This document shows, in pieces, positions 2,682 to 53,553 of a stretch of 57,013 nucleotides of DNA (its first letter is position 1; every line of letters begins with the position of its first letter). The DNA lies in assembly GCA_913060645.1 (NCBI GenBank), contig CAJXSW010000005.1, forward strand, positions 1 through 57,013, written 5' to 3'. The stretch comes from an uncultured Dokdonia sp. Lineage in GTDB: Bacteria > Bacteroidota > Bacteroidia > Flavobacteriales > Flavobacteriaceae. Both the position numbers and the translations under genes were made by a program. The notes beneath the pieces were generated by a model that made no database searches, was not told the origin of the DNA, and worked only from the letters and a program-made list of their open reading frames with translations.

Positions 2682-2699
2682 ACGCTTTCGCGAAAGCGT
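2682..2699. repeat. Dispersed palindrome, copy 1
   Basis: Perfect 18-bp palindrome ACGCTTTCGCGAAAGCGT, 20 bases after the redoxin stop codon and between two genes in the same direction. The core GCTTTCGCGAAAGC recurs throughout the window. Confidence 0.9.
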
Positions 2700-2795
2700 G
2701 ACTCAATAAATATATCTTTTAAAATTCTTAAATATCAGTAAGCGTTAGGGTCGCAGTCTAGAAGTAAGCCGAAAGTAAAGACCGCAAAATCAAAG

Positions 2796-2836
2796 TAGTG
2801 CCACTTAAAATTAAGTTTTTAGGTGCTAGATTTTTT
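2796..2836 (+). terminator. Possible terminator upstream of cdaA
   Basis: TAGTGCC can pair with GGTGCTA using G-U pairs, with an inner ACTTAA/TTAAGT helix, followed by a run of six T. The outer stem is weak. It would end the redoxin transcript before cdaA. Confidence 0.35.
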
Positions 2837-2877
2837 GCTCTCCCTTTTTCTGCTATTTTTACGTAAATCCTAGACTA

Positions 2878-3651
2878 TTGGAAATTTTAGAAAATCTGCG
2901 CATCTTAGACGGTATCGACATTTTGCTCGTTGCTACCTTGATGTTTTACTTATACAGGCTCGTCAAGGGAACGGTAGCTATAAATATCTTTATAGGTATT
3001 GTGGTGATTTATCTTATCTGGCAACTCACAGTACTTCTCAAAATGGAAATGCTTAGTACTATACTAGGGCAGTTTATAGGCGTAGGTATGTTTGCGCTCA
3101 TTGTAGTCTTCCAGCAAGAAATCAGGAAATTTTTATTACTCATAGGAAGCACAAACCTCACGAAGGGCGGACTATTTAAGAATTTTAATTTTTCAAAAAA
3201 AGAAGGTGTTCTCAATCTAGATATTCATGCAATTCTAGGAGCTTGTGAGAATATGAGTAACACAAAGACAGGTGCACTTATCATTATAAGAAGGGCAACG
3301 AGTCTAGAATTTGTAAAAGATACGGGAGACCGTATGGAGATTGAGGTAAACAGACCTATTATAGAAAGTGTTTTTTATAAGAACTCTACGTTACACGATG
3401 GTGCAATGATTATTGAGGATAATAAAATAACAGCAACTCGTGTTATTTTGCCTGTAACTCAAGAACGCAATATTCCATTACGCTTTGGACTTAGGCATCG
3501 TGCTGCAGTAGGAATCACAGAAAAGACAGACGCACTTGCTCTAGTGGTAAGTGAAGAAAGTGGTGCTATAAACTATATAAAGGATGGTGAATTTGTGCTT
3601 TTTGATACCATAGATGAGCTGCGTGTTTTATTAGAACAAGAATTAATGTAA
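2878..3651 (+). CDS. cdaA: Diadenylate cyclase CdaA (c-di-AMP synthase)
   Basis: Condenses two ATP into cyclic di-AMP at the inner membrane. The 257 residues show three N-terminal membrane helices (about 15-35, 36-55 and 62-80) and a DisA_N/DAC domain with both signature motifs, DGA at 174-176 and RHRAA at 206-210. The TTG at 2878 is the only plausible start: the frame upstream is open but has no better codon, and the protein then begins like other Bacteroidota CdaA. c-di-AMP usually controls turgor, potassium and the cell wall. Four bases separate it from the DUF3667 gene, so the two are probably co-transcribed. Confidence 0.95.
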   Translation: MEILENLRILDGIDILLVATLMFYLYRLVKGTVAINIFIGIVVIYLIWQLTVLLKMEMLSTILGQFIGVGMFALIVVFQQEIRKFLLLIGSTNLTKGGLFKNFNFSKKEGVLNLDIHAILGACENMSNTKTGALIIIRRATSLEFVKDTGDRMEIEVNRPIIESVFYKNSTLHDGAMIIEDNKITATRVILPVTQERNIPLRFGLRHRAAVGITEKTDALALVVSEESGAINYIKDGEFVLFDTIDELRVLLEQELM

Positions 3652-3655
3652 CGCC

Positions 3656-4651
3656 ATGTCTAAGAAACCATCAGATAATAGTAAGCTAGATAAAAAGAGT
3701 AGTAAGCTTGCTAAAAAAAGCAGAGATGTCCTCGTAGTTTCTGATCACTGTAAAAACTGCGGAACCCCAGTACAACTAGACCAGCGATTCTGTTCTCATT
3801 GTGGAGCAAAGCGCATGTATAATAGGCTCAACACCCGTAATCTTCTAGAGGACTTCACAGAGCGTTTTCTCAATATTGAGAATGTATTCTTAAAAACGTT
3901 TATCGTATTATTTACCGCACCAGAAGATGTAATCCATGGCTATGTAGAAGGTCTTAGAAAAAGATACATGTCTGCTTTCGGATATTTTGCTGTAGCACTT
4001 ACCATAACGAGTGTCTATACCTTTTTCTTTAGAAATTGGTTTATTGATTCTGAGAGTTTCTCTGAGTTTTCAAATGGATTTGCTAGCGGATTTGAAACAA
4101 CCGACGCAACAATCTTGACTAAATACATGGACTTTGTTTTTGATTATCAAAGCCTCTTTAGTTTTCTATGTATTCCGCTGTATGCTGTGATTTCAAAACT
4201 GGTTTTTTGGAACTATAAGCAGTATAATTTTATAGAGCATGTTGTCATCTATTTATACACCTATTCTCAGGTTCAGATTTTGATGTCTGTGCTTGGTATG
4301 CTCTTCATCTGGTCAAATATGGCGCAAGTGATTTTAGGAGTAGTGACTAGTGTATTTCCAATAATTTATACGATTTATGTACTCTATAGAATATTTGACT
4401 TAACAATAGAAAAGGCTATACTTAAAACTATATTATTTCTCGCCATACTATTACCGCTATCATGCTTATTCATAAGTGCGATAGGTGGAGTAATGCACTC
4501 TTTTGGGATGTTTGACGAGTTTATAGCAGATGTAAAACAGCAATCTGAATTAGCCAGAGCAGCTAGAGAAGCCGCTGTAAAAGCAAAAGACTCTTTACGT
4601 GTAGATAGTATCAAAGCAGCTGTACAAATCGTAAAAGATACGCTCAACTAA
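3656..4651 (+). CDS. DUF3667 membrane protein, copy 1
   Basis: A 331-residue protein with an N-terminal zinc ribbon (C32-x2-C35 and C46-x2-C49), the DUF3667 core (NLLEDFTERFLNIENVFLKTF, then APEDVIHGYVEGLRKRY) and about five predicted membrane helices. The C-terminal tail is charged and alanine-rich. The function of DUF3667 is unknown. It starts four bases after cdaA and is followed 24 bases later by a clear paralogue, so this is a tandem duplication. Its place in the cdaA transcript suggests a link with envelope or osmotic signalling, which is an inference from position only. Confidence 0.85.
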   Translation: MSKKPSDNSKLDKKSSKLAKKSRDVLVVSDHCKNCGTPVQLDQRFCSHCGAKRMYNRLNTRNLLEDFTERFLNIENVFLKTFIVLFTAPEDVIHGYVEGLRKRYMSAFGYFAVALTITSVYTFFFRNWFIDSESFSEFSNGFASGFETTDATILTKYMDFVFDYQSLFSFLCIPLYAVISKLVFWNYKQYNFIEHVVIYLYTYSQVQILMSVLGMLFIWSNMAQVILGVVTSVFPIIYTIYVLYRIFDLTIEKAILKTILFLAILLPLSCLFISAIGGVMHSFGMFDEFIADVKQQSELARAAREAAVKAKDSLRVDSIKAAVQIVKDTLN

Positions 4652-4675
4652 TCTTTTGAATATTAAAACCAACCT

Positions 4676-5689
4676 ATGTCTAAGTTATCTCGCGCTGAGA
4701 AGAAAGCTTTAAAAAAGAAACAGAACCAATTAGAAGTAAAGGATACTTGTGTAAACTGCGAGCAATTTATAGCGCTAGATCAAAGGTTTTGCTCACACTG
4801 TGGAGGTAAGCGTATTTACAATAAACTCACGTGGCGTAATCTACTAGAAGACTTTATCGATCGATTTTTTAATCTAGAAAATTCCTTTATCAAAACATTT
4901 GTAGCAATGTTTCGCCAGCCAGAAGATGTGATAGGTGGTTACATTAATGGAATGCGCAAGAAGTACCTTCCTGCCTTTAGTTACTTTGCGATTGCGATAA
5001 CCTTGAGTGGATTTTATTCATTTATACTAAAGGGTTGGTTTCTTGAGGATTTTATATCTGCTCAATCTAGCTTCTATGGAGTAGATGCAGCAAGTGCTCA
5101 AATGGAAATGACCGAGACTGTTACAAACACTATGATGGAATATCAGTCCATATATATGTTTCTTAGTATTCCTATTATGGCGCTTATATCTAAGTTTGTA
5201 TTTTGGAATTATAAAAATTATAATCTTGTTGAACATTTTGTAATATATCTGTACACATATTCTCATATATCAATAATATCAGTTACTCTTAACCTATTGG
5301 TTATTTGGAATACAACACTACTTTTTGCATTTAGTTTTGTAACTGTTTTCCTATTATTTGTATTTGCTGTGTATGTGTTGAAACGACTATATCAACTAGA
5401 TAACGCCAATGTGATTTTGAAGAGCTCCTTGTTTTTAGTCATTATACTCGCGTTCTCTTGCTTTTCAACTATTCCTCTTATGATATATGGAGCAGCGCAA
5501 GGAGCCAAAATTGCTAAAGGGGAGAAGTTAGATATTGATGAAAATTCATTTTTGGGCAATATGGTTAAGCCAACTCTAGAAAAAGTAAAACGTGAAAAAG
5601 CTTTGGACTCCATAAAACAAGATAGCCTCAAACGTCTAGAATATGAGCTAGAGATCACTCCAGATATGATTAAAAATAGACCTCAGTAG
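4676..5689 (+). CDS. DUF3667 membrane protein, copy 2
   Basis: A 337-residue paralogue of the preceding gene. The zinc ribbon is kept (C25, C28, C39, C42), as are LDQRFCSHCG, NLLEDFIDRFFNLENSFIKTF and the block VFWNYKNYNLVEHFVIYLYTYS. Membrane helices follow the same layout. The C-terminal tails of the two copies have diverged: this one ends in charged sequence with KREKALDSIKQDSLKRLEYE, probably a cytoplasmic helix. Function unknown. A palindromic repeat copy begins four bases after the stop. Confidence 0.85.
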   Translation: MSKLSRAEKKALKKKQNQLEVKDTCVNCEQFIALDQRFCSHCGGKRIYNKLTWRNLLEDFIDRFFNLENSFIKTFVAMFRQPEDVIGGYINGMRKKYLPAFSYFAIAITLSGFYSFILKGWFLEDFISAQSSFYGVDAASAQMEMTETVTNTMMEYQSIYMFLSIPIMALISKFVFWNYKNYNLVEHFVIYLYTYSHISIISVTLNLLVIWNTTLLFAFSFVTVFLLFVFAVYVLKRLYQLDNANVILKSSLFLVIILAFSCFSTIPLMIYGAAQGAKIAKGEKLDIDENSFLGNMVKPTLEKVKREKALDSIKQDSLKRLEYELEITPDMIKNRPQ

Positions 5690-5692
5690 GTA

Positions 5693-5712
5693 TACGCTTT
5701 CGCGAAAGCGTA
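5693..5712. repeat. Dispersed palindrome, copy 2
   Basis: Perfect 20-bp palindrome TACGCTTTCGCGAAAGCGTA, four bases after the second DUF3667 stop and about 90 bases before the cyclase gene. Confidence 0.92.
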
Positions 5713-5804
5713 ACAACAATAAATTTTCTAACAAATATCTCTTAAACGAGTAGTGATTGTTAGTATATATAAGGTACTTTGATAGACGCAGCATAAGATA
5801 ATAT

Positions 5805-6923
5805 ATGAAACTATTTAAAAAAGAATTTACCAATAATGAGATCCTGTTCTATGTAAGGCGTGCCTTGTGGATTCTCTTTGCGTGGATGCTGGTTGCAAAT
5901 ATTATTTTCTTGTATGACTATGCTACACTCGTTTCTGCAGATGCACTTACATCAGATTTTGATTTTGAAGTTTCCTTTAAGGCAAACTTACTGGTGTCCA
6001 TTATGGCTGGCTTAATAGGTGGGATTTTTACCGTTAATATTATGGAGTTGTGGTTACGTAAATATGCATTCTGGAGAGCGCTTATTTACATCACGTTGCT
6101 CTATGTCATTATTGCGTTTATTGTAGGTACTGTAGGAGCATATTACTACTATGCAGATTATCTTGGATTACATCTTACCAGTGACTTGCTTTATGATCGC
6201 GTGATTTCCTTTTATACAGAGCACATATTCATCAAGAATTTTGTGGTGTGGCTGTTTATTGTCATTCTAACGCTTATCATCCTTATGATTAATGATAAGT
6301 ATGGTCCAGGCGTTTTTCCAGATTATTTGATGGGGCGTTATTTTCATCCTAAAACTGAGACGCGCATTTTCATGTTTGCAGATATTAGAGACGCCACTAG
6401 AATTGCCGAAAAACTGGGCGAACAAGAATATTTCAACTTTTTAAAGGATTTCTTTAATGATATCGCACCAGCTATTATGCAAACTAAGGGCGAGGTTTAC
6501 CAGTACGTAGGCGATGAGGTTGTGATTACTTGGAAGATGAAAAATGGGGTAAAAAATGCAAATGCACTGCGCTGTTATTACCGTATGAAGAATATCATTT
6601 ACAAGAAATCTATAAAATATTACAAGCGCTACAATGCCTTGCCAGATTTTAAAGTTGGCTTTCATTATGGCCAAGTTACAGTAGGGGAGCTGGGTAAAAT
6701 AAAGAGAGATATTGCCTTTTCTGGAGACGTACTTAATACTACGGCACGTATCCAAAGTATGTGTAATGAGAAGGGAGTTGATATACTCGCGTCAAAAGCA
6801 TTTGCAAGTATACTACCTAAGTTGCCAGGCACTACGCGAGTAGTATCTATGGGTGATGAGCTTCTTAAAGGTAAAAAGGAGGAAGTATCGCTAGTGACTT
6901 TTGAGCAAGGTAATATTGACTAA
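5805..6923 (+). CDS. Membrane class III adenylate/guanylate cyclase
   Basis: A 372-residue protein with four hydrophobic segments (about 20-38, 60-80, 92-112 and 145-163) and a C-terminal class III cyclase domain from about 187. Both metal-binding aspartates are present (D193 in FADIRDAT and D237 in YVGDE), as are the transition-state residues N311 and R315 (VLNTTARI) and the substrate Asp D302. The Lys that normally reads adenine is Gln (Q233, VYQYVGDE), so the base preference cannot be assigned as ATP from sequence. It probably makes a cyclic nucleotide in response to a membrane signal. It faces the ABC exporter tail to tail. Confidence 0.88.
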   Translation: MKLFKKEFTNNEILFYVRRALWILFAWMLVANIIFLYDYATLVSADALTSDFDFEVSFKANLLVSIMAGLIGGIFTVNIMELWLRKYAFWRALIYITLLYVIIAFIVGTVGAYYYYADYLGLHLTSDLLYDRVISFYTEHIFIKNFVVWLFIVILTLIILMINDKYGPGVFPDYLMGRYFHPKTETRIFMFADIRDATRIAEKLGEQEYFNFLKDFFNDIAPAIMQTKGEVYQYVGDEVVITWKMKNGVKNANALRCYYRMKNIIYKKSIKYYKRYNALPDFKVGFHYGQVTVGELGKIKRDIAFSGDVLNTTARIQSMCNEKGVDILASKAFASILPKLPGTTRVVSMGDELLKGKKEEVSLVTFEQGNID

Positions 6924-6938
6924 TCTTTGCAAACTATA

Positions 6939-6957
6939 TACGCTTTCGCGAAAATGT
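6939..6957. repeat. Dispersed palindrome, degenerate copy
   Basis: ATACGCTTTCGCGAAAATG: the left half is intact and the right half has drifted. It sits in the 57-base gap between two convergent genes, where no other hairpin is seen. Confidence 0.7.
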
Positions 6958-6980
6958 GCTCAACAGACTAACATTGAGAA

Positions 6981-8747: not shown

Positions 8748-9507
8748 GATCTTTATAAATTGTTTCTGGGTATAAAATCTCTGTTAAGTATAAACCGCGT
8801 CCAGGAACTGATTTTCCAGCCTGTGATCTACTCTTGCCAGTTATTACCTCGTGCATCCATGCAATGTCTCTCTTTCCTTCGCCTATTTCTAGTAAAGTAC
8901 CTACAATGGCTCGTACCATATTACGTAAAAATCTATTTGCCGTAATGTGAAAATGATACTCATCTTCTGTCTCTATCCACGTTGCACGTGTAATATCACA
9001 AAGATAGGTGTTCACGTCAGTATTTGATTTAGAAAAACACTCAAAATCACTATAGTCAAGCAGTATCGCTGCCGCTTTATTCATAGCTTCAATATGCACT
9101 TCATTCCGTACTGTTGGTGCGTGATCTGATGTAAAAGGGTTTTTTTCTTTCCCTATGCGATACACATAAGATCTACTAGTGGCGTCAAAACGGGTATGTG
9201 CTTTATCTGCCACTTGAAAAATGCGTTTAAAGGCTATATCTTTTGGTAAAAGGCGATTGAACTTGTGGGTAAGTTTTTCTATGCTTTCTTGAGTAGTAAA
9301 ATGGTCGCCATCCCAATCAAAATGAGCATACATCTGTGTGGCATGCACACCCGCGTCAGTGCGTCCAGCGCCCATAATTTGGACTGGTTTTCTCAAAATC
9401 ATAGATAGTGCCTTCTCTATCGTTTCTTGCACGGTAACGGCATTAGGTTGACGCTGCCAGCCATGGTAGTGTTTTCCAAAGTAAGAAAGCTCAATAAAAT
9501 AACGCAC
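8734..9507 (-). CDS. truA: tRNA pseudouridine synthase A
   Basis: Isomerises uridines 38-40 in the anticodon stem of tRNAs. The catalytic Asp lies in GAGRTDAGVHA (D51 from the chosen start), with the family blocks YHGWQRQPNAVTVQETIE, FLRNMVRAIVGTLLEIG and AGKSVPGRGLYL. I chose the GTG at 9507, giving MRYFIELSYFGKHYHGW, which matches the normal TruA beginning. An ATG at 9552 would add 15 residues, but their first part is a translation of the palindromic repeat (RFRES) and lies upstream of a good -7 element. The end overlaps the ABC exporter start. Confidence 0.93.
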   Translation of the reverse strand: MRYFIELSYFGKHYHGWQRQPNAVTVQETIEKALSMILRKPVQIMGAGRTDAGVHATQMYAHFDWDGDHFTTQESIEKLTHKFNRLLPKDIAFKRIFQVADKAHTRFDATSRSYVYRIGKEKNPFTSDHAPTVRNEVHIEAMNKAAAILLDYSDFECFSKSNTDVNTYLCDITRATWIETEDEYHFHITANRFLRNMVRAIVGTLLEIGEGKRDIAWMHEVITGKSRSQAGKSVPGRGLYLTEILYPETIYKDHGRD

Positions 9508-9525: not shown

Positions 9526-9556
9526 CAAATATACGCTTTCGCGAAAGCGCACTCAA
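9526..9556 (-). promoter_or_regulatory. truA promoter with the palindrome as its spacer
   Basis: On the minus strand TATATTTG (9533-9526) is an exact TAnnTTTG and TTG (9556-9554) stands 20 bases upstream of it. The palindromic repeat fills nearly all of the spacer. The start of transcription would fall near 9519, about 12 bases before the GTG. Confidence 0.55.
9533..9550. repeat. Dispersed palindrome, between divergent genes
   Basis: ACGCTTTCGCGAAAGCGC, one mismatch from the full palindrome, in the 49-base gap between divergent truA and the YfcE-like gene. Confidence 0.88.
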
Positions 9557-12904: not shown

Positions 12905-12924
12905 TACGCTTTCGCGAAAGCGTA
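12905..12924. repeat. Dispersed palindrome, upstream of the FabH-like gene
   Basis: Perfect 20-bp palindrome TACGCTTTCGCGAAAGCGTA, 41 bases upstream of the FabH-like ATG. Confidence 0.92.
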
Positions 12925-15187: not shown

Positions 15188-15501
15188 AATACTTGTTGTT
15201 TGATGTAAAGATACATTATGTTTATCGTTGTTGCGATTTGATTAAACAAAAGTTAAGTTAAAATTATTTCAAATTATATGAAACTCTATGATGTAACAGA
15301 GATGCATATTTGACGCTATAGATATATAGGAGAGTGTTAGAAGTACGCTTTCGCGAAAGCGTAACAGCATTATACACGCATCTGTCTTATAATAGCTAGC
15401 TGCATATGCCTAGCTGTGACACCTTGTCATACTTTCTCTAGTGGCATACTCCTTGTCTATTTGTGTTTGTTGAAAATTAATAACACTTAAATACATATAT
15501 A
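15188..15501. other. Divergent tetR-dnaK intergenic region
   Basis: A 314-base region with one perfect palindrome copy (15344-15363). A TATCTTTA on the minus strand at 15213-15206 resembles the -7 consensus for the TetR gene. I see no clear dnaK promoter and no heat-shock inverted repeat. Confidence 0.5.
15344..15363. repeat. Dispersed palindrome, between tetR and dnaK
   Basis: Perfect 20-bp copy TACGCTTTCGCGAAAGCGTA between divergent genes, 138 bases before the dnaK ATG. Confidence 0.92.
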
Positions 15502-17406: not shown

Positions 17407-17410
17407 TCAT

Positions 17411-17422
17411 TTTCGCGAAAGC
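17411..17422. repeat. Dispersed palindrome, half copy
   Basis: TTTCGCGAAAGC just after the dnaK stop codon. The left arm is missing its GC end, so this is a decayed or partial copy. Confidence 0.65.
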
Positions 17423-24650: not shown

Positions 24651-24670
24651 TACGCTTTCGCGAAAGCGTA
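24651..24670. repeat. Dispersed palindrome, next to a terminator
   Basis: Perfect 20-bp TACGCTTTCGCGAAAGCGTA between convergent genes, directly after a conventional terminator. Confidence 0.92.
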
Positions 24671-25947: not shown

Positions 25948-26616
25948 ATGACGCACGTGTATTTAATGCCAGGTATGGCGGCCAATCCTTCTATTTTTGA
26001 GAATATAAAGTTACCCGAGGATTCTTATCAAATTCATTTGCTAGAATGGTTCATTCCAGAGGTAAATGAGTCACTACAAGACTATGCCTTGAGAATGACA
26101 ACTCATATTAAGCATGACAATGTCGTATTGCTAGGCGTTAGTTTTGGCGGGATACTCGTACAAGAAATGGTAAAGCATATTAAGGTGGCAAAGCTTATCA
26201 TTGTGAGTAGTGTTAAGACTAAGCATGAGTTACCACGTAGAATGAAGCTTTCGCGAAAGCTAAAGTTATACAACATATTGCCTACGAGATTAGTAGAAGA
26301 TATAGACACACTTACAAAATATGCCTTTGGCGAGACTATAAAAAATAGAGTGGCACTATATAAAAAGTACCTATCTATGAATGATAGAAGGTACTTGAGT
26401 TGGGCAGTAAAAGAAATGGTCTGTTGGGATCAAGAAACTGCGCCGCCAGGAATTATTCACATACACGGAAGTGCAGATAAAGTCTTCCCATTGAAGTATA
26501 TAGATAACTGTATTAATATAGAAGGAGGGACTCACATTATGGTGATAACTCGAGCAAAATGGTTTAATAAAAACTTAATCGAACTGATTGAAAATGATTA
26601 CATTGATTTAAAATAG
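25948..26616 (+). CDS. Alpha/beta hydrolase
   Basis: A 222-residue protein with the N-terminal strand and turn VYLMPGMAANPSIF and the nucleophile elbow GVSFGG (Ser65). The closing HIHGSADKVFP (Asp) and GGTHIMV (His) complete a plausible Ser-Asp-His triad. No signal peptide. Residues 100-105 (KLSRKL) are encoded by an in-gene copy of the palindromic repeat. The stop is five bases before the lytic transglycosylase start, so the two share a transcript. The substrate is unknown. Confidence 0.82.
   Translation: MTHVYLMPGMAANPSIFENIKLPEDSYQIHLLEWFIPEVNESLQDYALRMTTHIKHDNVVLLGVSFGGILVQEMVKHIKVAKLIIVSSVKTKHELPRRMKLSRKLKLYNILPTRLVEDIDTLTKYAFGETIKNRVALYKKYLSMNDRRYLSWAVKEMVCWDQETAPPGIIHIHGSADKVFPLKYIDNCINIEGGTHIMVITRAKWFNKNLIELIENDYIDLK
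26246..26261. repeat. Dispersed palindrome inside the hydrolase gene
   Basis: Perfect 16-bp AGCTTTCGCGAAAGCT, read in frame as Leu-Ser-Arg-Lys. Confidence 0.85.
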
Positions 26617-28975: not shown

Positions 28976-30802
28976 TTAATTCCCGTCTTTTTTAACGGAT
29001 TTTAATAGTCTTGGCGTGTTCATTAAGGCTGGATTTTGAGTGCGTTGTGTAGAGGTGTTTTGGTTACGCTCTAATAAAGCTTCTTTCTCAAGTTTGCTCT
29101 TTTCATCTAGATTTTCTTGTCCATATTTTGGCTTATTTTCTTCTCGATTTTCTAGAGTTCCTTCTTTTATATCTGAGCTTTCAGATAGCGGTTTGATTGT
29201 TGGGTCATCACTAGTTGAAAAGAAACCAGCATCAATTTCGGGTAGGGGTATTCCTTGAATTTTAGTAAGCTCAAACGGAGCTTCTCCTTTAAATATATCC
29301 TCCTTGCTCAACAACTCTTCATCACCTCTCCAGTTAAAGCCCTCAAAGGTTTGTGGTTCATTCTTAAATTGTGATTCGGGAAAAATGGTTCCTCCCGGAC
29401 TTTTAAGTTTATTAATCTCGTCTATCGTATTTTCAAAAAAAGTAATTTCTATACGAGCAGAGGTTCCTCTGTCTATGCCAGTAAGGTCACCGTTTTCTTC
29501 ACGCATATACATTATTGTCTCTGCGTTGTTTATAATGTCTACCTGTTTAAGCTGATTTTCATCATCAAAAAAGCCATATAGTTTTTGTCCTTTGACTTGG
29601 TTAAATCCAGAAATCGTGTCTTTCTGAGCGATAAACGCATTATCAAAAACCTTTAGAGAGTCTATTTTTTCTGTTTCTAGATTATTGAGAAGGTGAATGC
29701 TATCTCCTGTAATTTGGCTTTTCTCACTCCATAGTATAGGCTTTCCTATCATTTGAGTAAGTCCTGTGCGCTGGTTACTATGCAGGGAGTCGCTTTTACC
29801 ACTCATGTTACTCTTATAAAGTTTTACATTCTTAAAAGCTCTTATAATTCGGTTCTCCGGCTTTCCAGTAAGTAAAAGTCTGTCGCCATGTACGTACACA
29901 GAGTCATTATCTTCTACTGTGATAGCAACTGCTCGTTGTGTGATTAAAACAGAATCCTTTGCTCTGTACACTTCTGCATAATGTCCTTTTACAAGGCTTC
30001 TGTTTAAGGTGTCAAGAACTTTGATATTGTTAGTCGCGCTTGCAAAGTTTCTATTTCTGTCAAAATAGAGGCTATCTCCATATACTTGCCTATTGTCATA
30101 ATCTATTCTCGAGTTCTTTACAAAATAACCATAATCATTTGCAGTGTCATAAAACCCGCGCTCACAATATACCTTAGATGTTGAACTCGTAATTGTAGTA
30201 GGTCCATACAAATAAGCATGTTCTGGGACGCTATAAAAGTCTAGTTGCTCACTGTTAATTACGTACTCAGTATTTGTAACCACAACATCATTAATGAAAG
30301 AGATTTTATCCTGCTCTATATAGTAGCGACCTACGCGGCTAGTTATTTTGCTGTTTGGTGATGTGACAACTCCTCCTGTGCGATAGTACGCTTGCTGGCT
30401 TATGCGGTTAAAGTACATAGTATCTGTAGTCACTGTTGTGGTATCTTTCTTTAAGAAGACATCACCTGCTGCATAAGCAAACTTCGTGTCACCGTTATAT
30501 TCTATATATCTACCACGCATAGAGATAGAGTCGCCTTGCTTTAAGCGTACATTTCTATAAGCTTTTACAAAGTTCTCGTCTTTATAATAAAAAGCAAGAT
30601 CGCACCACATTTCGGCACCTTCGTGTTGTATGTATACTTGCTTATTTGATTTCTGAAAAATAATTGCGCCAGGAAATTCTTCTTCATTGATGCGTTCAAT
30701 GTCAGATTCTATGAGGATTTCTTTAGGTTGGTTTTGTTGCGCTTTCGTGAAAGCAGAACATAAAAACATCCCAGTAAGTAAAATGTAAAAGTAATTTTTC
30801 AT
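28976..30802 (-). CDS. OstA/LptA-like periplasmic protein
   Basis: A 608-residue secreted protein with many short repeats of the OstA/LptA beta-jellyroll (KAYRNVRLKQGDSISMRGRYIEYNGDTKFAYAAGDV, then further RAFKNVKLY- and KVFDNAFI-type strands). These folds bind lipid A in LPS transport. The low-complexity C-terminal tail (from about 525) is rich in Glu/Lys/Asn. I chose the ATG at 30802; a TTG three codons upstream is the alternative. The signal peptide is MKNYFYILLTGMFLCSAFTKAQ, whose end is encoded by a one-mismatch palindrome copy. Role in LPS transport is inferred from the fold. Confidence 0.88.
   Translation of the reverse strand: MKNYFYILLTGMFLCSAFTKAQQNQPKEILIESDIERINEEEFPGAIIFQKSNKQVYIQHEGAEMWCDLAFYYKDENFVKAYRNVRLKQGDSISMRGRYIEYNGDTKFAYAAGDVFLKKDTTTVTTDTMYFNRISQQAYYRTGGVVTSPNSKITSRVGRYYIEQDKISFINDVVVTNTEYVINSEQLDFYSVPEHAYLYGPTTITSSTSKVYCERGFYDTANDYGYFVKNSRIDYDNRQVYGDSLYFDRNRNFASATNNIKVLDTLNRSLVKGHYAEVYRAKDSVLITQRAVAITVEDNDSVYVHGDRLLLTGKPENRIIRAFKNVKLYKSNMSGKSDSLHSNQRTGLTQMIGKPILWSEKSQITGDSIHLLNNLETEKIDSLKVFDNAFIAQKDTISGFNQVKGQKLYGFFDDENQLKQVDIINNAETIMYMREENGDLTGIDRGTSARIEITFFENTIDEINKLKSPGGTIFPESQFKNEPQTFEGFNWRGDEELLSKEDIFKGEAPFELTKIQGIPLPEIDAGFFSTSDDPTIKPLSESSDIKEGTLENREENKPKYGQENLDEKSKLEKEALLERNQNTSTQRTQNPALMNTPRLLKSVKKDGN
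30741..30754. repeat. Dispersed palindrome in a signal peptide codon stretch
   Basis: GCTTTCGTGAAAGC, one mismatch from the core. On the minus strand it encodes A-F-T-K-A at the end of the OstA-like signal peptide. Confidence 0.75.
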
Positions 30803-35073: not shown

Positions 35074-35091
35074 ACGCTTTCGCGAAAGCGT
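35074..35091. repeat. Dispersed palindrome, upstream of the exchanger
   Basis: Perfect 18-bp copy ACGCTTTCGCGAAAGCGT between divergent rel and the Na+/Ca2+ exchanger gene. Confidence 0.9.
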
Positions 35092-36200: not shown

Positions 36201-36220
36201 TACGCTTTCGCGAAAGCGTA
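36201..36220. repeat. Dispersed palindrome, next to a terminator
   Basis: Perfect 20-bp TACGCTTTCGCGAAAGCGTA, eight bases before a normal bidirectional terminator between convergent genes. Confidence 0.92.
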
Positions 36221-37599: not shown

Positions 37600-39783
37600 A
37601 TGTCAAAAATTCGTTTTAAAGCTTTGCATGATGTGCAGCATAGACCAGCCGTAACTTTTGAATCCTTAGGAAGACCGTCTTCATTATTTAAGTCTAACGT
37701 ATTTGGAGAGCAAGCTATGCGTCAATTCCTGTCTAAATCTACCATAGACAGTGTGCAGACAGCGATACGAAAAGGAGATAATATAGATCGCATCACCGCA
37801 GATGCCATTGCTACAGGAATGAAATCTTGGGCACTTGATAAAGGAGCTACTCATTACACGCATTGGTTTCAACCGCTCACAGGTGCCACGGCAGAGAAGC
37901 ATGATGCTTTTTTCGAAATTACAACAGATGGTCATGTTATTGATAAATTTGACGGTGGGCAGCTAGCACAGCAAGAGCCAGATGCAAGTAGTTTTCCTAA
38001 TGGAGGAATACGCAACACTTTTGAAGCAAGAGGATATACCGCTTGGGATCCTACTTCTCCAGCATTTATATATGACAATACTTTATGTATTCCAACGGTT
38101 TTTGTGGCATACACAGGAGAGGCACTTGATTATAAAACACCATTACTCAAAGCCCTTAACACGATTGATCAAGCTGCTACAGCAGTAGCTCAGTATTTTA
38201 ATAAAAATGTAAATAAAGTGACAGCTACCTTAGGGTGGGAGCAGGAGTTTTTTCTTATAGATGCATCACTAGCAGCTGCACGACCAGACTTGATGCTTAC
38301 AGGAAGAACGCTTCTAGGTCATGCCGCTGCAAAAGGACAGCAACTAGATGACCATTACTTTGGATCTATTCCTATCAGAGTGCTGGCATATTTAAAGGAG
38401 TTAGAGCAAGAATGTTTGTTACTGGGTATTCCTTTAAAGACACGGCATAATGAAGTAGCGCCTAATCAATTTGAGATGGCTCCTATTTTTGAAGAAGCAA
38501 ATCTAGCGGTAGATCATAATGCATTACTCATGGATGTAATGCAAAAAGTAGCGCAACGTCATCACTTTAAGGTACTCTTTCATGAGAAACCATTTGAGAA
38601 TATAAATGGTAGCGGGAAACATAATAACTGGTCACTAGCTACAGATACTGGAGTAAACCTACTAAGCCCAGGAAGTACTCCAATGAAAAATTTACAATTT
38701 CTGACCTTCTTTGTAAATACTATTAAAGCGGTTCATGAACATGAAGCTTTGCTTAGAGCTTCTATTGCTAGTGCGGGTAATGATTATCGCCTTGGTGCAA
38801 ATGAAGCACCGCCAGCCATTATATCTGTCTTTATAGGTTCACAACTCACACAAGTGCTAGATGAGTTAGAAAAAGTAACAGATGGAAAATTATCTCCACA
38901 AGAAAAAACTGATCTTAAACTCAATGTAATAGGTAAGATTCCAGAGATTCTACTTGATAATACAGATCGCAATCGTACCTCACCTTTTGCATTTACAGGT
39001 AATAAATTTGAGTTTAGAGCCGTAGGTGCTACTGCAAACTGTGCAAACCCTATGACGGTTCTTAACGCAATCGTGGCGCAGCAGCTTATTGCTTTTAAGA
39101 AGGAGGTAGATGCTCTTATAGATAATAAGGACATGAAAAAGGACGATGCTATCTTTAATATCCTTAGAGAGTATATAAAGGACAGCAAGAAAATAAGATT
39201 TGAAGGAGATGGCTATGGAGCTTCTTGGGAAAAAGAAGCAAAAAAGCGCAAGCTTAGTAATAATAAGACCACAGTTTCTGCTCTTGAAGCCCGTATAAGT
39301 AAAAGTACGGTAGCATTATTTGAGTCTTTAGGTATTATGAACAATGTTGAGATTCAAGCGCGTTACGAGATCGAACTAGAAGAGTATGTAAAACGCATAC
39401 AGATAGAAAGCCGTGTGCTAGGTGATGTAGCTCGTAATCACATTATCCCAACAGCTTTAAGATATCAGAATGTATTGATAGACAATGTAAGAGGCTTGAA
39501 AGAAATATATGGTGAAGACTTTACCGCTTTCGCGAAAGCGCAAACAACCATTATCAAATCACTATCAGAGCATACCGCGAGCATCAATAGTCTTATAACA
39601 GAAATGATCGATGCTCGTAAAGAAGCTAATGCGCTTGACCTAAAAGATAAGGCAAGTAACTATGCGACAAAAGTGAAACCTTATTTTGAACTAATAAGAA
39701 GAGATTGTGATAAACTTGAGCTTTTAGTAGAAGATGAGTTATGGCCCTTACCTAAATATAGAGAACTTCTATTTGTAAACTAA
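37600..39783 (+). CDS. glnN: Glutamine synthetase type III (GlnN)
   Basis: The large GSIII form, 727 residues, which also makes glutamine and is typical of Bacteroidota. Signature segments are GRPSSLFKSNVFGEQAM, THWFQPLTGATAEKHDAF, GGQL, WEQEFFLID, NEVAPNQFEMAPIFEEANLA, HEKPFENINGSGKHNNWSLAT, ANEAPPAIISVF, NRTSPFAFTGNKFEFRAVG. A palindromic repeat copy (39525-39540) lies in frame near residue 642 and encodes AFAKA in a variable helix of the C-terminal region. It is the divergent partner of GSII. Confidence 0.95.
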   Translation: MSKIRFKALHDVQHRPAVTFESLGRPSSLFKSNVFGEQAMRQFLSKSTIDSVQTAIRKGDNIDRITADAIATGMKSWALDKGATHYTHWFQPLTGATAEKHDAFFEITTDGHVIDKFDGGQLAQQEPDASSFPNGGIRNTFEARGYTAWDPTSPAFIYDNTLCIPTVFVAYTGEALDYKTPLLKALNTIDQAATAVAQYFNKNVNKVTATLGWEQEFFLIDASLAAARPDLMLTGRTLLGHAAAKGQQLDDHYFGSIPIRVLAYLKELEQECLLLGIPLKTRHNEVAPNQFEMAPIFEEANLAVDHNALLMDVMQKVAQRHHFKVLFHEKPFENINGSGKHNNWSLATDTGVNLLSPGSTPMKNLQFLTFFVNTIKAVHEHEALLRASIASAGNDYRLGANEAPPAIISVFIGSQLTQVLDELEKVTDGKLSPQEKTDLKLNVIGKIPEILLDNTDRNRTSPFAFTGNKFEFRAVGATANCANPMTVLNAIVAQQLIAFKKEVDALIDNKDMKKDDAIFNILREYIKDSKKIRFEGDGYGASWEKEAKKRKLSNNKTTVSALEARISKSTVALFESLGIMNNVEIQARYEIELEEYVKRIQIESRVLGDVARNHIIPTALRYQNVLIDNVRGLKEIYGEDFTAFAKAQTTIIKSLSEHTASINSLITEMIDARKEANALDLKDKASNYATKVKPYFELIRRDCDKLELLVEDELWPLPKYRELLFVN
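39525..39540. repeat. Dispersed palindrome inside glnN
   Basis: Perfect 16-bp CGCTTTCGCGAAAGCG, read in frame as A-F-A-K-A in the C-terminal helical part of GSIII. Confidence 0.88.
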
Positions 39784-43215: not shown

Positions 43216-43620
43216 ATGAGAATACTACTTTTTTTATTCATGGCTGTAGGAGTTTCTGCTTTCGCGAAAGCACAACAATTTTCTTATAAACCTATAAGTC
43301 CTTTTTTTGGAGGAGATACTTTTAATTATCAGCAGATCATAACTTCTGTGACATTGCAAAATAGCCTTTCGGAGTCTGTTGATGAGCAAGAGGAGTTGTC
43401 AGAGTTACAACAATTTGGTAGAGAGCTCAATAGGAATTTATTAAATGCTATAGAGAGCCAGTTAAGCCAGGCACAACTAAACGCTTTAAATATTACTGAA
43501 GAGGGCACTTTTACATTTGGATCGCTCAATGTAGAGGTGTTTGAAACCTTTGAGGGATTAGTTATAAATATTTTGGATACCAATAATGGTGAAGAAACGC
43601 AAATAGTAGTACCTAACTAG
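43216..43620 (+). CDS. csgF: Curli assembly protein CsgF
   Basis: A 134-residue secreted protein. The mature part begins QQFSYKPISPFFGGDTFNYQ, the conserved CsgF start that plugs the CsgG channel (compare FxYxPxNPxFGG). CsgF sits at the cell surface on CsgG and attaches the nucleator. The signal peptide MRILLFLFMAVGVSAFAKAQ ends in a stretch (AFAKA) encoded by the palindromic repeat. The start is one base after csgE stops, and csgG follows ten bases later. Confidence 0.92.
   Translation: MRILLFLFMAVGVSAFAKAQQFSYKPISPFFGGDTFNYQQIITSVTLQNSLSESVDEQEELSELQQFGRELNRNLLNAIESQLSQAQLNALNITEEGTFTFGSLNVEVFETFEGLVINILDTNNGEETQIVVPN
43258..43271. repeat. Dispersed palindrome in the csgF signal peptide
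   Basis: Perfect 14-bp core GCTTTCGCGAAAGC, read as A-F-A-K-A at the signal peptide cleavage site. Confidence 0.88.
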
Positions 43621-46708: not shown

Positions 46709-49700
46709 CTATTTCGCTCGCATTGCTTTCTTAAAAACGCTTCTTGTAGTTTTATTTAATGCATAATCAAGTGGTTTCTTGCCTTTGTGATTCATTTGAC
46801 TTAAGTCTGCACCATTAGTTATCAAAAGTTCAATTACAGGTAGCGCATATTCCTTTTGACTTGCTAGAATATGTAATGCTGTATTACCAGATGGATCTTG
46901 AATGTTTATGCGAGCGCCAAGTTCAATGAGCATCTGCACAATTAATTCACTGTCTTCAGTTAATGATCTACTTAGGGTATGTATTGGGTAATTACCATTA
47001 TCAAAAGCAGTATTTAAATGTATTTCTGGCTGTTGCACAAGTTGTAAAACTCCTTCAGTAAAATGATAATCTATAGCTATTCTCAAATGCTCTTGACTGC
47101 ATATAGCTCCATTTTTGATAAGCTCTTTAAGCGAACCTATCATTTTATAGCGAATTGCATCTTCAATAGCTAGGGAAGAATTTGCTCCATTAGATAGTAA
47201 TCTTTTTAGAACTGATAAATTTCCTTTGCGGGCTGCGCTGCGAATGAATTCATTGCCTTCTAAACTAGAAACATGATCCATTAGCAATAAAATGAGAGGT
47301 TCGTTTTTAGTTTCCATTGCATTTGCTAGTGACTCATCTGCTTTAGCACCGCTGTTTAATAAGGAACTTACAATTTCAATATTTTCTGTTTCTGTTGCGT
47401 CAAGTAATGCTTGGTTGAGGTTAACGTCTCCTTGATTCACAAGTAACTCAACAAGACCTAGGTTTTCATTTGTAATTGCCGACTCAATAAGAAGTGGGTC
47501 TGTGGTGTCTGCTCCCATAGAGATTAAGTACTGACTTATTGTTTGGTTTTCTATAGTTATTGCTTTATTAATTCCTCTACTAGGATTACTATTATTAGAA
47601 ACCAAGAGTTTTACCATGTCAACATTCTCACCAGCTACGGCAAGCGGTAATAAATTATCAACATTCAATCCTTCTTTTTTTGTAGCAATCACAGACTCTG
47701 CAAATGGGAGATTATTTTCCTTAATTGCTGCTGTCATAGCTACATCTGGGTTTCCTTCATAAAGGTGAAGTACATCATTAAATAATTGAGCATCATCTTT
47801 TTGAGCAGCATAAAATAGGGTGCTGTCTGGAGCTGCCTTATTTTGAAGAGCAATATTGATAGCTTTGATATTATCTTTTGTGATGGCATACTCTAATGAC
47901 TCAGAGGCATTTCCACCATTTTTAAGTGAGATATCTAGAATTTCATAATTATTGTTGTCTGTTGCTATATTAGAGATTTTATTACTGCTTATACGTGCAT
48001 TCTTATTGATAAAGTAATTGAATAACTCTGTGTTATCAAGCATTGATGTCACTTCGAGGGTGTTTTCATTTGCTTCAGTTACAGGTATGATTATGTCTTT
48101 AAGCTCTTCATTACCATTTCTCAGAGCGCTATCTAAAAGAGATGCATCTGCGGTTGCACCGAGTATTGTAAATTTTTCAGCGAGCTCAGCATCATTGTTT
48201 TCTACGGCTAGAGATAGTTCTTTTTTACCTGCTTCAAATGCTTCAAACTCCACACTCATTAAAGCCTTGACAGATGGATAGTGATAGGTGTCTAGTGCAA
48301 ATGATAAATCATTGTTTACAGGAGTAGCTCCCTCCCTCAGTAGCGCATAAATAATAGGTTCGCTTTGAAAAGCAACTGCTTTATAAATCATATTATTTTT
48401 AAAGGGAGCACCTCTTTCTAAAAGGATTAATACTTTTTGTTCATCAAAATACTCTTTGAGGAACAGCAAGTCGAGATCCTCACTATTTGGTATTACTCCT
48501 TTATCTAGTACAAAATTTAGTATTTGTGAAGATTGTTTTGAAGTAATGATAGCAGCGATTAAACCCGGGATTCTTCTAGTTGCATTTTGTGCCAATAAAG
48601 TTTTCATGCGAGCTAGATCGCCTATGTTTGCAGCTCTTACAATTTCTGTTTGTAATGCAGTATTGTAATGTTGTGCGCTATTTTCTAATAATTTTTTTTC
48701 CTTTTCTAGAGACAATACGTAAGCCACTTCATAAATATCGCCGTCTATAGTCGTTATCTCCACATCTTTATGAATATCCCTTACGAGTGCTTCTTTATAA
48801 AAAGTTTTTGCTTCTTCCGGACCAGAAACTCGTAAGCGCTTGCGTTCTCTGCTTTTGACTAGTTTTTTTGTGTCATCCCATACACTTACATATCCTTTTT
48901 CTAAGTCCTCAGGTTTTGCTGTAATGATGACTTGTTTATTGAGTTTTATTTCTTCGTCAGTGATTAAGGTTTCTAGCCGTACACCGCCACGGTCTATAAG
49001 TGGTGCTGTGCGTAACATGGCTTCATCTTTTGAAAATCCTCCAAAAAATAAATCACCCGTGTAGGCATCCACATCACTTGACGTAACACCAGCACTTTTT
49101 TTAACTAATTTGTCAATAGACTGTTTAAATCGCAAAGAGTATTTAGTGAAATAAGCAGAATGTTGCGGGGCATATAATTGATTTTTAGAAGTACGTATAG
49201 CTATGTTAATAATACTATCTAGTAATTGTATAATCCTTTCTTTATCCTGTATATCTGCTGTAGTGAGGTTTCTTAATGCCTTGGTCCAGGGTTGTAGCGT
49301 GACATCTATGGCCGCAGTATTATTTTTTACAGTAGTTTGCCAGTCTGTAAACCAGGGTGTATCGATATCACCTCCCTTTGTAAATGAGCTGCTAGATCCA
49401 GCGGAAATGTATGGGTCTGTATCCTCCTTATTTTGATGTGATGCACTAATGTCTTCTATTACTTTTTCCTTAAAAAAGTCACGATCATACGGAGAGTATA
49501 TGAAATCGTCATTTTTGATTAAGTTTCTCTTTAAGAAAAGACCTCCATAAATGACTTCATGAGCATAATGTGTGCCGTAACGGTATATAAATCCTTCTGG
49601 AGTGATATCGCGTCCTAGTCTTTTAAAATCTTCAACCATTGCACTATCTAGTACGTTAGAAGAAACAGCTACAAGTATATCTTTTGATAATGGTATTTGT

Positions 49701-50086
49701 TTTTTAGTATAAACTAAGAGGGTTTTATTTGACTCATCGTTATTAAAGCCTTTGTAATGTGCTTCACTATGTAACGCATGATAGGGTTTTGAAAGGGTAT
49801 CGGCATTTAAAATTTGTTTTTCAAACTCGTAGGGAGACGTTATAAAATGAAAACTCTCCACTGGACTAGTATCAAGAGAAGTACTATGTATGGATCCATA
49901 GATAAGTTGCTTTCCTTTTGAAGATCCTAGCCAGTCTAAGGCATCAACATAACGTATGTCAAAACCCTGCCCAATGAGATTAGGATTTTGTGGTTGCTGG
50001 CAGAATAAAGGGTTATTTAAAATTAATAGGAATAGGGGGAGCATAAAGTATTCCTTTCGGAAAAAGCGTGTAGTCTCCAAAGGCAA
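46709..50086 (-). CDS. Secreted MACPF-domain protein with a long ankyrin-repeat tail
   Basis: A 1125-residue protein, among the largest here. A hydrophobic signal (PLFLLILNNPLFCQ) is followed by a MACPF domain (about 35-400) with the perforin signature FIYRYGTHYAHEVIYGG (Y170-G-T-H-Y174, then G181-G). From about 495 to the end there are about 20 ankyrin-like repeats; the last are canonical (SGNTALHILASQKEYALPVIELLITNGADL). MACPF proteins form pores by oligomerising; Bacteroides relatives kill related bacteria. The target is unknown. TTG at 50086 gives a charged n-region; ATG at 50044 is the alternative start, beginning at MLPLF. Confidence 0.88.
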   Translation of the reverse strand: MPLETTRFFRKEYFMLPLFLLILNNPLFCQQPQNPNLIGQGFDIRYVDALDWLGSSKGKQLIYGSIHSTSLDTSPVESFHFITSPYEFEKQILNADTLSKPYHALHSEAHYKGFNNDESNKTLLVYTKKQIPLSKDILVAVSSNVLDSAMVEDFKRLGRDITPEGFIYRYGTHYAHEVIYGGLFLKRNLIKNDDFIYSPYDRDFFKEKVIEDISASHQNKEDTDPYISAGSSSSFTKGGDIDTPWFTDWQTTVKNNTAAIDVTLQPWTKALRNLTTADIQDKERIIQLLDSIINIAIRTSKNQLYAPQHSAYFTKYSLRFKQSIDKLVKKSAGVTSSDVDAYTGDLFFGGFSKDEAMLRTAPLIDRGGVRLETLITDEEIKLNKQVIITAKPEDLEKGYVSVWDDTKKLVKSRERKRLRVSGPEEAKTFYKEALVRDIHKDVEITTIDGDIYEVAYVLSLEKEKKLLENSAQHYNTALQTEIVRAANIGDLARMKTLLAQNATRRIPGLIAAIITSKQSSQILNFVLDKGVIPNSEDLDLLFLKEYFDEQKVLILLERGAPFKNNMIYKAVAFQSEPIIYALLREGATPVNNDLSFALDTYHYPSVKALMSVEFEAFEAGKKELSLAVENNDAELAEKFTILGATADASLLDSALRNGNEELKDIIIPVTEANENTLEVTSMLDNTELFNYFINKNARISSNKISNIATDNNNYEILDISLKNGGNASESLEYAITKDNIKAINIALQNKAAPDSTLFYAAQKDDAQLFNDVLHLYEGNPDVAMTAAIKENNLPFAESVIATKKEGLNVDNLLPLAVAGENVDMVKLLVSNNSNPSRGINKAITIENQTISQYLISMGADTTDPLLIESAITNENLGLVELLVNQGDVNLNQALLDATETENIEIVSSLLNSGAKADESLANAMETKNEPLILLLMDHVSSLEGNEFIRSAARKGNLSVLKRLLSNGANSSLAIEDAIRYKMIGSLKELIKNGAICSQEHLRIAIDYHFTEGVLQLVQQPEIHLNTAFDNGNYPIHTLSRSLTEDSELIVQMLIELGARINIQDPSGNTALHILASQKEYALPVIELLITNGADLSQMNHKGKKPLDYALNKTTRSVFKKAMRAK
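50054..50070. repeat. Possible decayed palindrome copy
   Basis: CTTTCGGAAAAAGCGTG differs from the repeat by a small insertion and a substitution. It lies at the 5' end of the MACPF reading frame, upstream of the ATG at 50044. Confidence 0.4.
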
Positions 50087-50240: not shown

Positions 50241-50258
50241 ACGCTTTCGCGAAAGCGT
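50241..50258. repeat. Dispersed palindrome between MACPF gene and purM
   Basis: Perfect 18-bp ACGCTTTCGCGAAAGCGT in the 284-base divergent gap, about 110 bases upstream of purM. Confidence 0.9.
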
Positions 50259-51632: not shown

Positions 51633-51819
51633 ATGCACAAGAAATAGGGCGTTAAGTTTTGTTTCACACATGGTAATAATTTGCTTTTAGGAAAGTTAGC
51701 TGTTTGTTTTAGGATTTTTTTATGATTTCAGAAATCTGCTGACTATCATTTTTTCGTATATTTTCTATCCCAAGTCAAACGATTATTTAACTACCCTAAT
51801 TAGTCAAATAACTATCCGT

Positions 51820-52545
51820 ATGGAGAGAATTACATCAGCAATAAAATGTAGGAGATTACCATTAATCATCGGTTTTGTAATCTTGATTAATATAGTAGCT
51901 GTCTTTACCTCAGATTTAGAGATTATGAGGATAATACGCTTACTTACAATTGGAGTATATGTAGCCTACTATCTTTTAAGCGTATCTCAAAGAAGTCTTA
52001 TAGTCCTTGTAATATTATTTAGTTTGCTAGCTAGAGATATAGCGGTGCTATTTTATGAGACTAATGTAGGACATACATTGTACCTTATATTAGGTATTGC
52101 GGCATATGCAACTATCTGTTTAGAAAGAGGAGATATACTTAAAGTGATAAGTAGAGATAAAAGTGCTTTGATTTTTACACTTGTATTTGTTGTGCTCAAT
52201 ACATTTGCCCTAAGTGAAATTGCTAGTTTTATTAATGTAGGGTTCCAAGGTCCATTTGACCCTTTTCTATTTTATATGTATGGTGTGTTTATGATTGTTT
52301 TTGGAGCAACCGCAATCATTTATAATCAAGTGTATAATAGTAATAGGTCACTTGCTTATATATTATTTATGATTAGTTTTCTTACAAGTGATGTCACCTC
52401 GTTATTTGCATATTACTTTGGATATGAGATGCTTTTTTACGTAGACCGTGTTGCTTATGCGGTAGGATTAGGTCTTTTTTCTTATACAGTTATTGAAACT
52501 AGTAGTCAGCTTGAAGAAGCAGAGCAATATGATATGTTATCTTAA
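51820..52545 (+). CDS. Eight-helix membrane protein, paralogue 1
   Basis: A 241-residue integral membrane protein with about eight helices and very few charged residues inside them. Conserved points shared with the next gene are a polar RD/RE pair in helix 3, the block YNQVxNSxRSLAxxxFxxxFxxSDVxSLxxYYFG, and a C-terminal acidic tail. The layout vaguely resembles YhhN/lysoplasmalogenase-type proteins, but I cannot confirm that family. Function unknown. It lies alone 267 bases after purM. Confidence 0.75.
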   Translation: MERITSAIKCRRLPLIIGFVILINIVAVFTSDLEIMRIIRLLTIGVYVAYYLLSVSQRSLIVLVILFSLLARDIAVLFYETNVGHTLYLILGIAAYATICLERGDILKVISRDKSALIFTLVFVVLNTFALSEIASFINVGFQGPFDPFLFYMYGVFMIVFGATAIIYNQVYNSNRSLAYILFMISFLTSDVTSLFAYYFGYEMLFYVDRVAYAVGLGLFSYTVIETSSQLEEAEQYDMLS

Positions 52546-52796
52546 TGAGCTGGGGTGCTTTTTTTAATTACCAACTTCTCTATAATTATTTCTTTACTGT
52601 AACCGCATCGCTTTATTAATGCAATGTACGACAGGTGTGATTGTATTAATTTGGGTTGTAAATATCTTTATTTAAGCTGTTTATAATTATTTAGTTTTGT
52701 TAAAGTATATCTGAGGCGGTATTTATATTTTTACTTTTACTTACTTTTATTAACAAGTAAAATGCTTTTAGTATTCCCCCAACCAATAATTGACTA

Positions 52797-53522
52797 ATGC
52801 AATTTTTATTACGTAAAGCAGGTAGATATTTACCATTAATAACTCTAGGTTTAGTAGCACTAAACATACTGTCTTGGTTTTTGAGACGTGAGTTTTACCT
52901 CTTCAGATATATACCGCTTTTAACTGTACTAGTCTTTCTCATTTATTACATAATCAAAGCACCTCGTATTAGGTTTATCGTTATAGCAATTCTAGTAATG
53001 TTAGCCCTACGAGAATATTCTGTGTTCTACTATTATAAAAACTTTGGGCAGATAGCTTATATCCTTCTTGGCTGTGTGACTTATAGTCTCATTATTATAA
53101 AGCGGTTAGATATGCTTAGTGCATTTTTAAAAGATCGAGCAGCGATAATATGCACTCTAATTTTTATTACACTCAACATGCTTATACTTAATGAACTAGT
53201 GTCTCAGGTGAAGGAAGGTTACGAAGGGTCTTTTCAGTCTGGTCTTGTGTTTCTTTTTGGAGTTATCATAAGTTTATTAGGAGCAATAGCAGTCTTATAT
53301 AACCAAGTTGTTAATAGTGATAGATCATTAGCTTTTCTGTTTTTTGTATTTTGTTTTATCTTTTCGGACGTGGCATCTCTTCTTGGGTACTATTTTGGAA
53401 TTAGTTTCTTCTATTATATTGATTTTGTTAGTGCCGCGTTAGGATTGGCCTTTTTTATATACACGGTTTTGGATGTAGATAATAAAGAAGAAGAGAAGAA
53501 TCAACTTACTCAATCGTATTAA
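52797..53522 (+). CDS. Eight-helix membrane protein, paralogue 2
   Basis: A 241-residue paralogue of the preceding gene, the same length exactly, sharing YNQVVNSDRSLAFLFFVFCFIFSDVASLLGYYFG and ALGLAFFIYTVLD. The 251 bases between them contain no ORF I can support. The pair are a local duplication. Function unknown. A palindrome copy begins 17 bases after the stop. Confidence 0.75.
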   Translation: MQFLLRKAGRYLPLITLGLVALNILSWFLRREFYLFRYIPLLTVLVFLIYYIIKAPRIRFIVIAILVMLALREYSVFYYYKNFGQIAYILLGCVTYSLIIIKRLDMLSAFLKDRAAIICTLIFITLNMLILNELVSQVKEGYEGSFQSGLVFLFGVIISLLGAIAVLYNQVVNSDRSLAFLFFVFCFIFSDVASLLGYYFGISFFYYIDFVSAALGLAFFIYTVLDVDNKEEEKNQLTQSY

Positions 53523-53539
53523 TCACTATTTCTTTTTTT

Positions 53540-53553
53540 GCTTTCGCGAAAGC
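53540..53553. repeat. Dispersed palindrome, upstream of prfA
   Basis: Perfect 14-bp core GCTTTCGCGAAAGC followed by GTATA, 17 bases after the membrane gene stop. Confidence 0.88.

Follow-up and report, generated by a model that had tools for sequence, protein, structure and literature searches.

A palindrome repeated along the window

We analyse a 57,013-nucleotide stretch of DNA from an uncultured Dokdonia (contig CAJXSW010000005.1, part of the genome called G000 below), referred to here as the window, along which a 14-bp palindrome, GCTTTCGCGAAAGC, recurs at dispersed positions. Allowing up to two mismatches, we find 16 copies in the window (13 exact, one with one mismatch and two with two), compared with a mean of 0.07 and a maximum of 1 when the window sequence is shuffled and counted in the same way. 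The original prediction, made from the window alone, had reported about 16 dispersed copies, and its coordinates agree with ours to within 0–3 bases. An 18-mer extension of the core is exact at eight copies, and on average the element reaches roughly 25 bp past the core on each side. The original prediction had also placed twelve copies between genes, and our own reading of a list of open reading frames (ORFs) gives about 12 of 16 as intergenic; these ORFs, on which all statements below about placement, spacing, gaps and island content are based, are mechanical calls and not annotated genes.

No strand is assigned to any of the copies. Exact cores lie in intergenic DNA at 5696..5709 and 12908..12921, in a tandem gap at 53540..53553, and in divergent gaps at 15347..15360, 35076..35089 and 50243..50256. 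The exact core at 9535..9548, conserved in three relatives, lies in a gap that is divergent by our own reading and is overlapped by two mechanical ORF starts, and the one at 2684..2697 is conserved in place in the related genomes G302, G299 and G313. By eye, two exact cores adjoin a separate terminator-like hairpin: the one at 24654..24667 and the one at 36204..36217, which sits in a convergent gap 1,128 bp past the previous core. Two copies are one-armed; at 6942..6955 (intergenic, and one-armed likewise in G302) the left arm is intact, and at 17409..17422, directly past an ORF end at 17406, the right arm is. Three exact cores fall within ORFs, at 26247..26260 (ORF 25948–26616; identical in four relatives), at 39526..39539 (the type III glutamine synthetase gene, 37600–39783; identical in five relatives) and at 43258..43271 (ORF 43216–43620; kept in G305 and not in G302), where the core codes for AFAKA in a signal-peptide-like N-terminus. 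The one-mismatch core at 30741..30754, at a doubtful ORF start, is exact in G302, G299 and G313 and degenerate in G305.

The palindrome is abundant in a few related genera

The window's genome (3.11 Mb in 219 contigs, ~89% complete) contains 705 exact copies, and a control with the letters reversed gives 0. In 117 kb of this genome we count 28 exact, three one-mismatch and five two-mismatch copies, where permuted palindromes yield means of 0, 0.02 and 0.19 for zero, one and two mismatches. All 18 genus members searched are rich in the palindrome (369–905 copies each), so that counting in other genomes, the check put forward with the original prediction, gives numbers far above expectation. Within a family sample of 299 genomes, five (G000, G206, G010, G242 and G190) have 408–857 copies and the other 294 have at most 19, with any copy at all in 61 of the 299; in a class sample of 395 genomes every genome besides G000 has at most four. 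Of the 80 matches listed for the 16-mer in named genomes, 13 come from other organisms and the remaining 67 from Dokdonia, Nonlabens or strain BBFL7. We infer that the group g11 (G010 and G242) is Nonlabens; G190 adjoins Dokdonia in trees of AddA and AddB, with SH-like approximate likelihood-ratio test (SH-aLRT) support of 98 and 87. A small test for other palindromes that might serve as dialects, made on single 20-kb samples of G051, G076 and G287, gave none with three occurrences. Text searches of an open-licence library turned up no description of the palindrome; the ten papers there that contain the 10-mer carry unrelated titles.

Depending on the genome, Dokdonia has one site per ~3.6–7.6 kb (4.3–4.7 kb in the stretches of G302 and G305), and along the G299 chromosome the density is even: each of 23 stretches has 3–9 exact sites per 20 kb. 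Only 72 of 149 sites in G299 lie within ORFs, which cover 92% of the DNA, and therefore intergenic DNA is strongly preferred there; in G190, 47 of 55 sites are within ORFs. Of the intergenic sites of G299, 45 are in tandem, 12 in convergent and 15 in divergent gaps, which speaks against a role in transcription. Termination had already been set aside as the common explanation in the original prediction, and we reach the same view, since none of the seven copies in positions 1–20000 of the window is among the 17 terminator-like sites found there, the flanks have no T run, and many G299 sites are in ORFs or divergent gaps. Seven gaps in the stretches examined are longer than 11.5 kb. Judged by a look at the sequence, three of them contain giant surface-protein-like ORFs, two contain housekeeping-like genes, one a helicase-like region and one a sugar-transferase cluster; the two with housekeeping-like genes are at odds with an origin of such gaps in foreign DNA.

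Sites are conserved in place

When the window's sites are aligned with relatives, all 14 bases are identical at 12 of 13 sites in G302, 12 of 12 in G299, 12 of 12 in G313 and 5 of 5 in G305, compared with 0.26–0.30, 0.07–0.09, 0.06–0.09 and 0.03, respectively, for other 14-mers taken from those alignments as background. In diverged gaps a local alignment may be biased towards the palindrome, which does not affect the in-gene sites 26247 and 39526. In the reverse direction, the relatives' aligned sites are identical in the window in 12 of 13, 12 of 13, 11 of 13 and 4 of 4 cases (same order: G302, G299, G313, G305). Conservation at orthologous sites no better than background would have spoken against the original prediction, and what we see is far above it. 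The positions of the palindrome are kept by selection.

How sites arise can be read from two genes in which genomes with and without a site can be aligned. Five site positions, two of them in AddA (one common to four Dokdonia genomes, the other in G190) and three in AddB (G190 has two and G242 one), fit alignments with site-less genomes with no insertion at the site, and these sites were therefore made by substitution. Building them in AddA and AddB seems to have cost amino-acid changes.

A symmetric element with strand-skewed flanks

The core, written more fully as (ac)GCTTTCGCGAAAGC(gt), lies in the middle of a larger element, about 64 bp long, that has two-fold symmetry. For roughly 25 nt on each side, the strand entering the core is keto-rich (G/T, poor in C) and the strand leaving it is poor in G. 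In 828 Dokdonia flanks (414 sites) the positions just past the core are G at +1 (85%), T at +2 (60%), A at +3 (77%) and A at +4 (61%), and between +6 and about +25 the outgoing strand is C-rich with a G frequency of 0.07–0.105, compared with 0.183 in random 20-mers; 49% of 20-nt flanks have no more than one G, a proportion that is 11% in random 20-mers. Past +25 the composition heads back to baseline, and the flanks are ordinary outside about 25 nt. Because G+C changes little, the bias is one of keto against amino bases and is strand-specific. The skew is alike on both sides of the core and in both settings in G299 (flank G of 0.093 within ORFs and 0.078 outside), and it is also present at Nonlabens loci (G of 0.095–0.121; 52 sites).

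In 71 one-armed copies the skew is stronger on the side of the intact arm, and the element therefore resembles a pair of inverted half-sites. Among those of these copies with a clear local skew, 22 are on the leading and 25 on the lagging strand, taking the G-rich strand as leading. The flanks do not extend the core into a structured hairpin (pairing at flank positions 4–25 of 0.403, control 0.408, at 184 sites). Mutational deamination is a less likely cause of the skew than selection, we judge, because the inbound strand loses C while both G and T rise. The flanks show a half-turn periodicity, strongest at about 5.75 nt with 39% of the residual variance, that is too weak to claim. At locus L405, near 9011, there is a related but different palindrome, GGTACACTTTCGCGAAAGTGTACC, in which both arms are changed symmetrically.

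Neighbouring sites are almost excluded within 1 kb

Quantitative inspection of the distances between sites reveals a minimum spacing. In G000, none of 59 gaps is shorter than 1 kb, where 12.8 are expected. For 342 gaps from stretches of G302, G305, G299 and G000, six are below 1 kb, all of them in G299, against 90 expected under a gene-aware null in which coding and intergenic sites stay as numerous as observed; since related species have sites in common, their gaps are not independent. Resolved into 250-bp bins, these 342 gaps give 1, 1, 3 and 1 below 1 kb where 37, 19, 17 and 17 are predicted, and 22 in the first bin above 1 kb where 16 are predicted. The smallest of 99 gaps in G242 is 1,268 bp, with a coefficient of variation (CV) of 0.44 versus 0.99. 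Degenerate copies avoid exact ones as well: 7 of 67 lie within 1 kb of an exact copy, compared with 50% for random positions.

If the importance of a site lay solely in its splitting of a gap (a coverage model), the step in the single gap would have no explanation; consecutive gaps are uncorrelated (−0.05; 320 pairs). The step suggests physical interference between sites, or complete redundancy, over about 1 kb. Separately, locus L113 of G299 (226–1859) has two copies 1,633 bp apart whose 20-nt flanks are identical on both sides, probably a recent duplication.

Candidate factors and possible functions

To see which proteins accompany the palindrome, we surveyed protein families in 23 genomes, nine rich in it and 14 poor. 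Each genome has one strong HTH_ParB match, with no second in any of the nine rich genomes and a weak second in three poor ones, and an alignment of ParB from five rich and five poor genomes shows the same kind of protein; we therefore reject an extra ParB as the cognate protein. PDDEXK_1 (AddB/AddA-like) proteins occur in all 23 genomes and a ComEC-type gene in 22. T2SSE, the ATPase of type IV pili or type II secretion, is above the cut-off in two of nine rich and three of 14 poor genomes, with weak matches below the cut-off in all 23, and Y1 transposase (E <= 0.001) is absent from six of the nine rich genomes and matched in G206, G010 and G242. None of these families separates rich from poor genomes. 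In an AddA tree the rich rows form one group (five rich of 17 rows, with no Nonlabens-like row and with one poor row a fragment), which they do not in trees of AddB (seven of 20) or Kbl (five of 15).

Few chromosome-wide repeated signals are known; the classes named in the portion of PMC4390886 drawn on here are Chi, the DNA uptake and uptake signal sequences (DUS/USS) and the highly iterated palindrome HIP1. The present palindrome, found in harmless marine bacteria, offers a clear anatomy, conservation in place and a measurable spacing rule which, as far as we know, is unreported for such signals and which provides a clean test of how selection shapes site layout. Each of the known signals, among which FtsK-orienting polar sequences (KOPS) are another, opened a piece of chromosome biology. 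Two features besides the spacing rule go beyond the original prediction: the strand skew of the 25-nt flanks and the confinement of the palindrome to a few genera.

A cellular machine probably reads the palindrome. Our tentative choice, held at well short of an even chance, is that the palindrome is the site of a chromosome-wide DNA-binding or DNA-processing complex, with chromosome organisation or segregation as its likeliest job; a nucleoid- or segregation-protein site was among the original suggestions, and it leads here even though ParB, single and ordinary, is ruled out as the obvious protein. In such a scheme a dimeric or two-sided protein complex would recognise the two inverted half-sites (7 bp plus 25 nt each), load or stop at the element and act on about 0.5 kb to either side, so that a second site within about 1 kb would be useless or harmful. 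The element could then serve as a nucleoid-architecture site or as a docking or stop site for a translocase, its skew polarity resembling a miniature terminus on which keto-rich strands converge from both sides. It is possible, though less likely than not, that this is a new class of signal, a symmetric 64-bp element every ~4 kb, almost barred within ~1 kb of the next, that marks docking or stop points of a translocase or strand-processing machine, with the chromosome handled in units of at least ~1 kb. We favour docking or stopping because the step in the single gap suggests interference or redundancy and because Chi and uptake sequences each miss a predicted feature.

Several observations weigh against this choice. 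The survey of 23 genomes found no binding protein for the element among the families covered. A keto/amino skew with little change in G+C is more easily explained by a single-strand process than by a double-strand binder, and in G190 (46% G+C) the skew is weak. The spacing rule has exceptions, with gaps of 197, 328, 606, 615, 668 and 997 bp in G299, 539 bp in G313, 136 and 821 bp among the first 100 sites of G302, and 856 and 933 bp among the named loci, and in G190 the spacing is not significantly even (CV 0.64 versus 0.93, P 0.06, 12 gaps). Finally, flanked copies in some phage-like contigs would be superfluous for a purely chromosomal architecture role.

Of the other readings, we consider a bidirectional Chi-like signal unlikely yet the most serious. 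An AddAB-type helicase-nuclease arriving from either direction would stop at the palindrome, and the surviving 3'-ended strand would be loaded with RecA along its GT-rich 25 nt just 5' of the core. RecA prefers GT-rich DNA, a preference for which our literature search gave no confirmation. The density of sites resembles that of Chi, the polarity of the flanks is as the model predicts (GT-rich on the strand expected to survive Chi-type processing), and some phage-like contigs have copies; AddAB-like PDDEXK_1 genes are present in all 23 genomes, equally in poor ones, and so do not discriminate. Chi is a short oriented oligomer that typically shows a replication orientation bias, whereas here the core is a 14-bp palindrome, which in full form lacks any orientation, and one-armed copies are unoriented, though fork repair should orient them; nor does a Chi-like role give a reason for the pairwise exclusion. 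A DNA uptake sequence serving natural transformation and kept up through preferential uptake and recombination is in our view rather improbable, even though many features of the population of sites are common to known uptake sequences; an uptake-type sequence was among the original suggestions. Over-representation, even spacing, in-place conservation and permissive positions all match what the portions of PMC2397512 and PMC7811141 used here report for DUS and USS (relatively even spacing, conservation in place, permissive core-genome positions and hundreds to thousands of copies), and the half-element, at 7 bp plus 25 nt, is close in length to the full-length USS of 31 bp described in that part of PMC7811141. 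Some long gaps contain DNA that looks variable, metal-efflux-like islands bring copies with them, and the ComEC-type gene is nearly universal in the survey, though it does not separate rich from poor genomes. T2SSE, the sole pilus component searched, falls short of the cut-off in seven of nine rich genomes, and the element is a palindrome with two flanks, a keto/amino and not an A+T skew and a minimum distance of ~1 kb, and is present in some phage-like contigs; the same portions of the two papers mention closely paired DUS and USS with no 1-kb exclusion.

We are more doubtful still of a HIP1-like role, in which a highly iterated palindrome would be linked to mismatch repair or to the methylation of DNA, the latter also among the original suggestions. 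HIP1 of cyanobacteria (GCGATCGC) is, by the portion of PMC4390886 concerned, a highly iterated palindrome whose role is unsettled, and ours is likewise palindromic, very abundant and found within and between genes; however, its core is longer and unrelated, it belongs to another phylum, and neither its long skewed flanks nor its spacing rule follows from a methylation mark. We reject as very improbable a mobile palindrome spread by a REP-associated tyrosine transposase (RAYT) or another transposase, and with it the miniature mobile palindrome among the original suggestions. Like repetitive extragenic palindromes (REPs), the palindrome is abundant, dispersed and enriched between genes, and three of nine rich genomes do match Y1 transposase, but there is no loop pair, the other six carriers have no such enzyme, the five AddA and AddB positions need no insertion, the flanks are ordinary beyond ~25 nt, and positional conservation and repulsion between copies are unlike insertions. 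The sites of parS/Noc type are palindromes with TTTC/GAAA arms, which our element shares; here the arms are one base nearer the centre, there are hundreds of sites, and the single HTH_ParB protein is the only one.

Copies in poor genomes and viral contigs

In eight poor genomes, all 35 copies examined, from 17 stretches, fall within ORFs. In seven of the eight these include metal-efflux-like ORFs, which account for about 28 of the copies. The labels of these island ORFs (long RND-like, 405-aa ORF, Fur-like, metal-ATPase-like) come from inspection of the sequence, and the islands with in-ORF palindromes, which come from several genera, are loci L065–L080 (G087, G215, G101, G078, G012, G201 and G111). 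A pair of copies exactly 933 bp apart in the 405-aa ORF recurs in five genomes. The island copies are likely a trace of passage through a palindrome-rich genus, and in this sense the palindrome marks DNA that has probably passed through the carrier genera. The coding of AFAKA at a signal-peptide end by the palindrome recurs in different ORFs (window 43216–43271, L066, L067, L070, L074, L078 and L081), apparently a tolerant place in genes for it.

For viral contigs, 13 of 133 copies among the matches listed pass a simple flank-skew test and most fail. Ten proteins from five flanked viral loci include some with matches to integrase, tail, baseplate and transposase families, and a search of viral contigs for relatives of the locus of one window protein found none. 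The viral loci L161, L165 and L170, with integrase, tail, baseplate or transposase matches, have G-poor outgoing flanks, as does L203, which has a site in common with L161 with identical 25-nt flanks. In the window itself, positions 46709–50086 hold a 1,125-aa ORF with MACPF and ankyrin domains.

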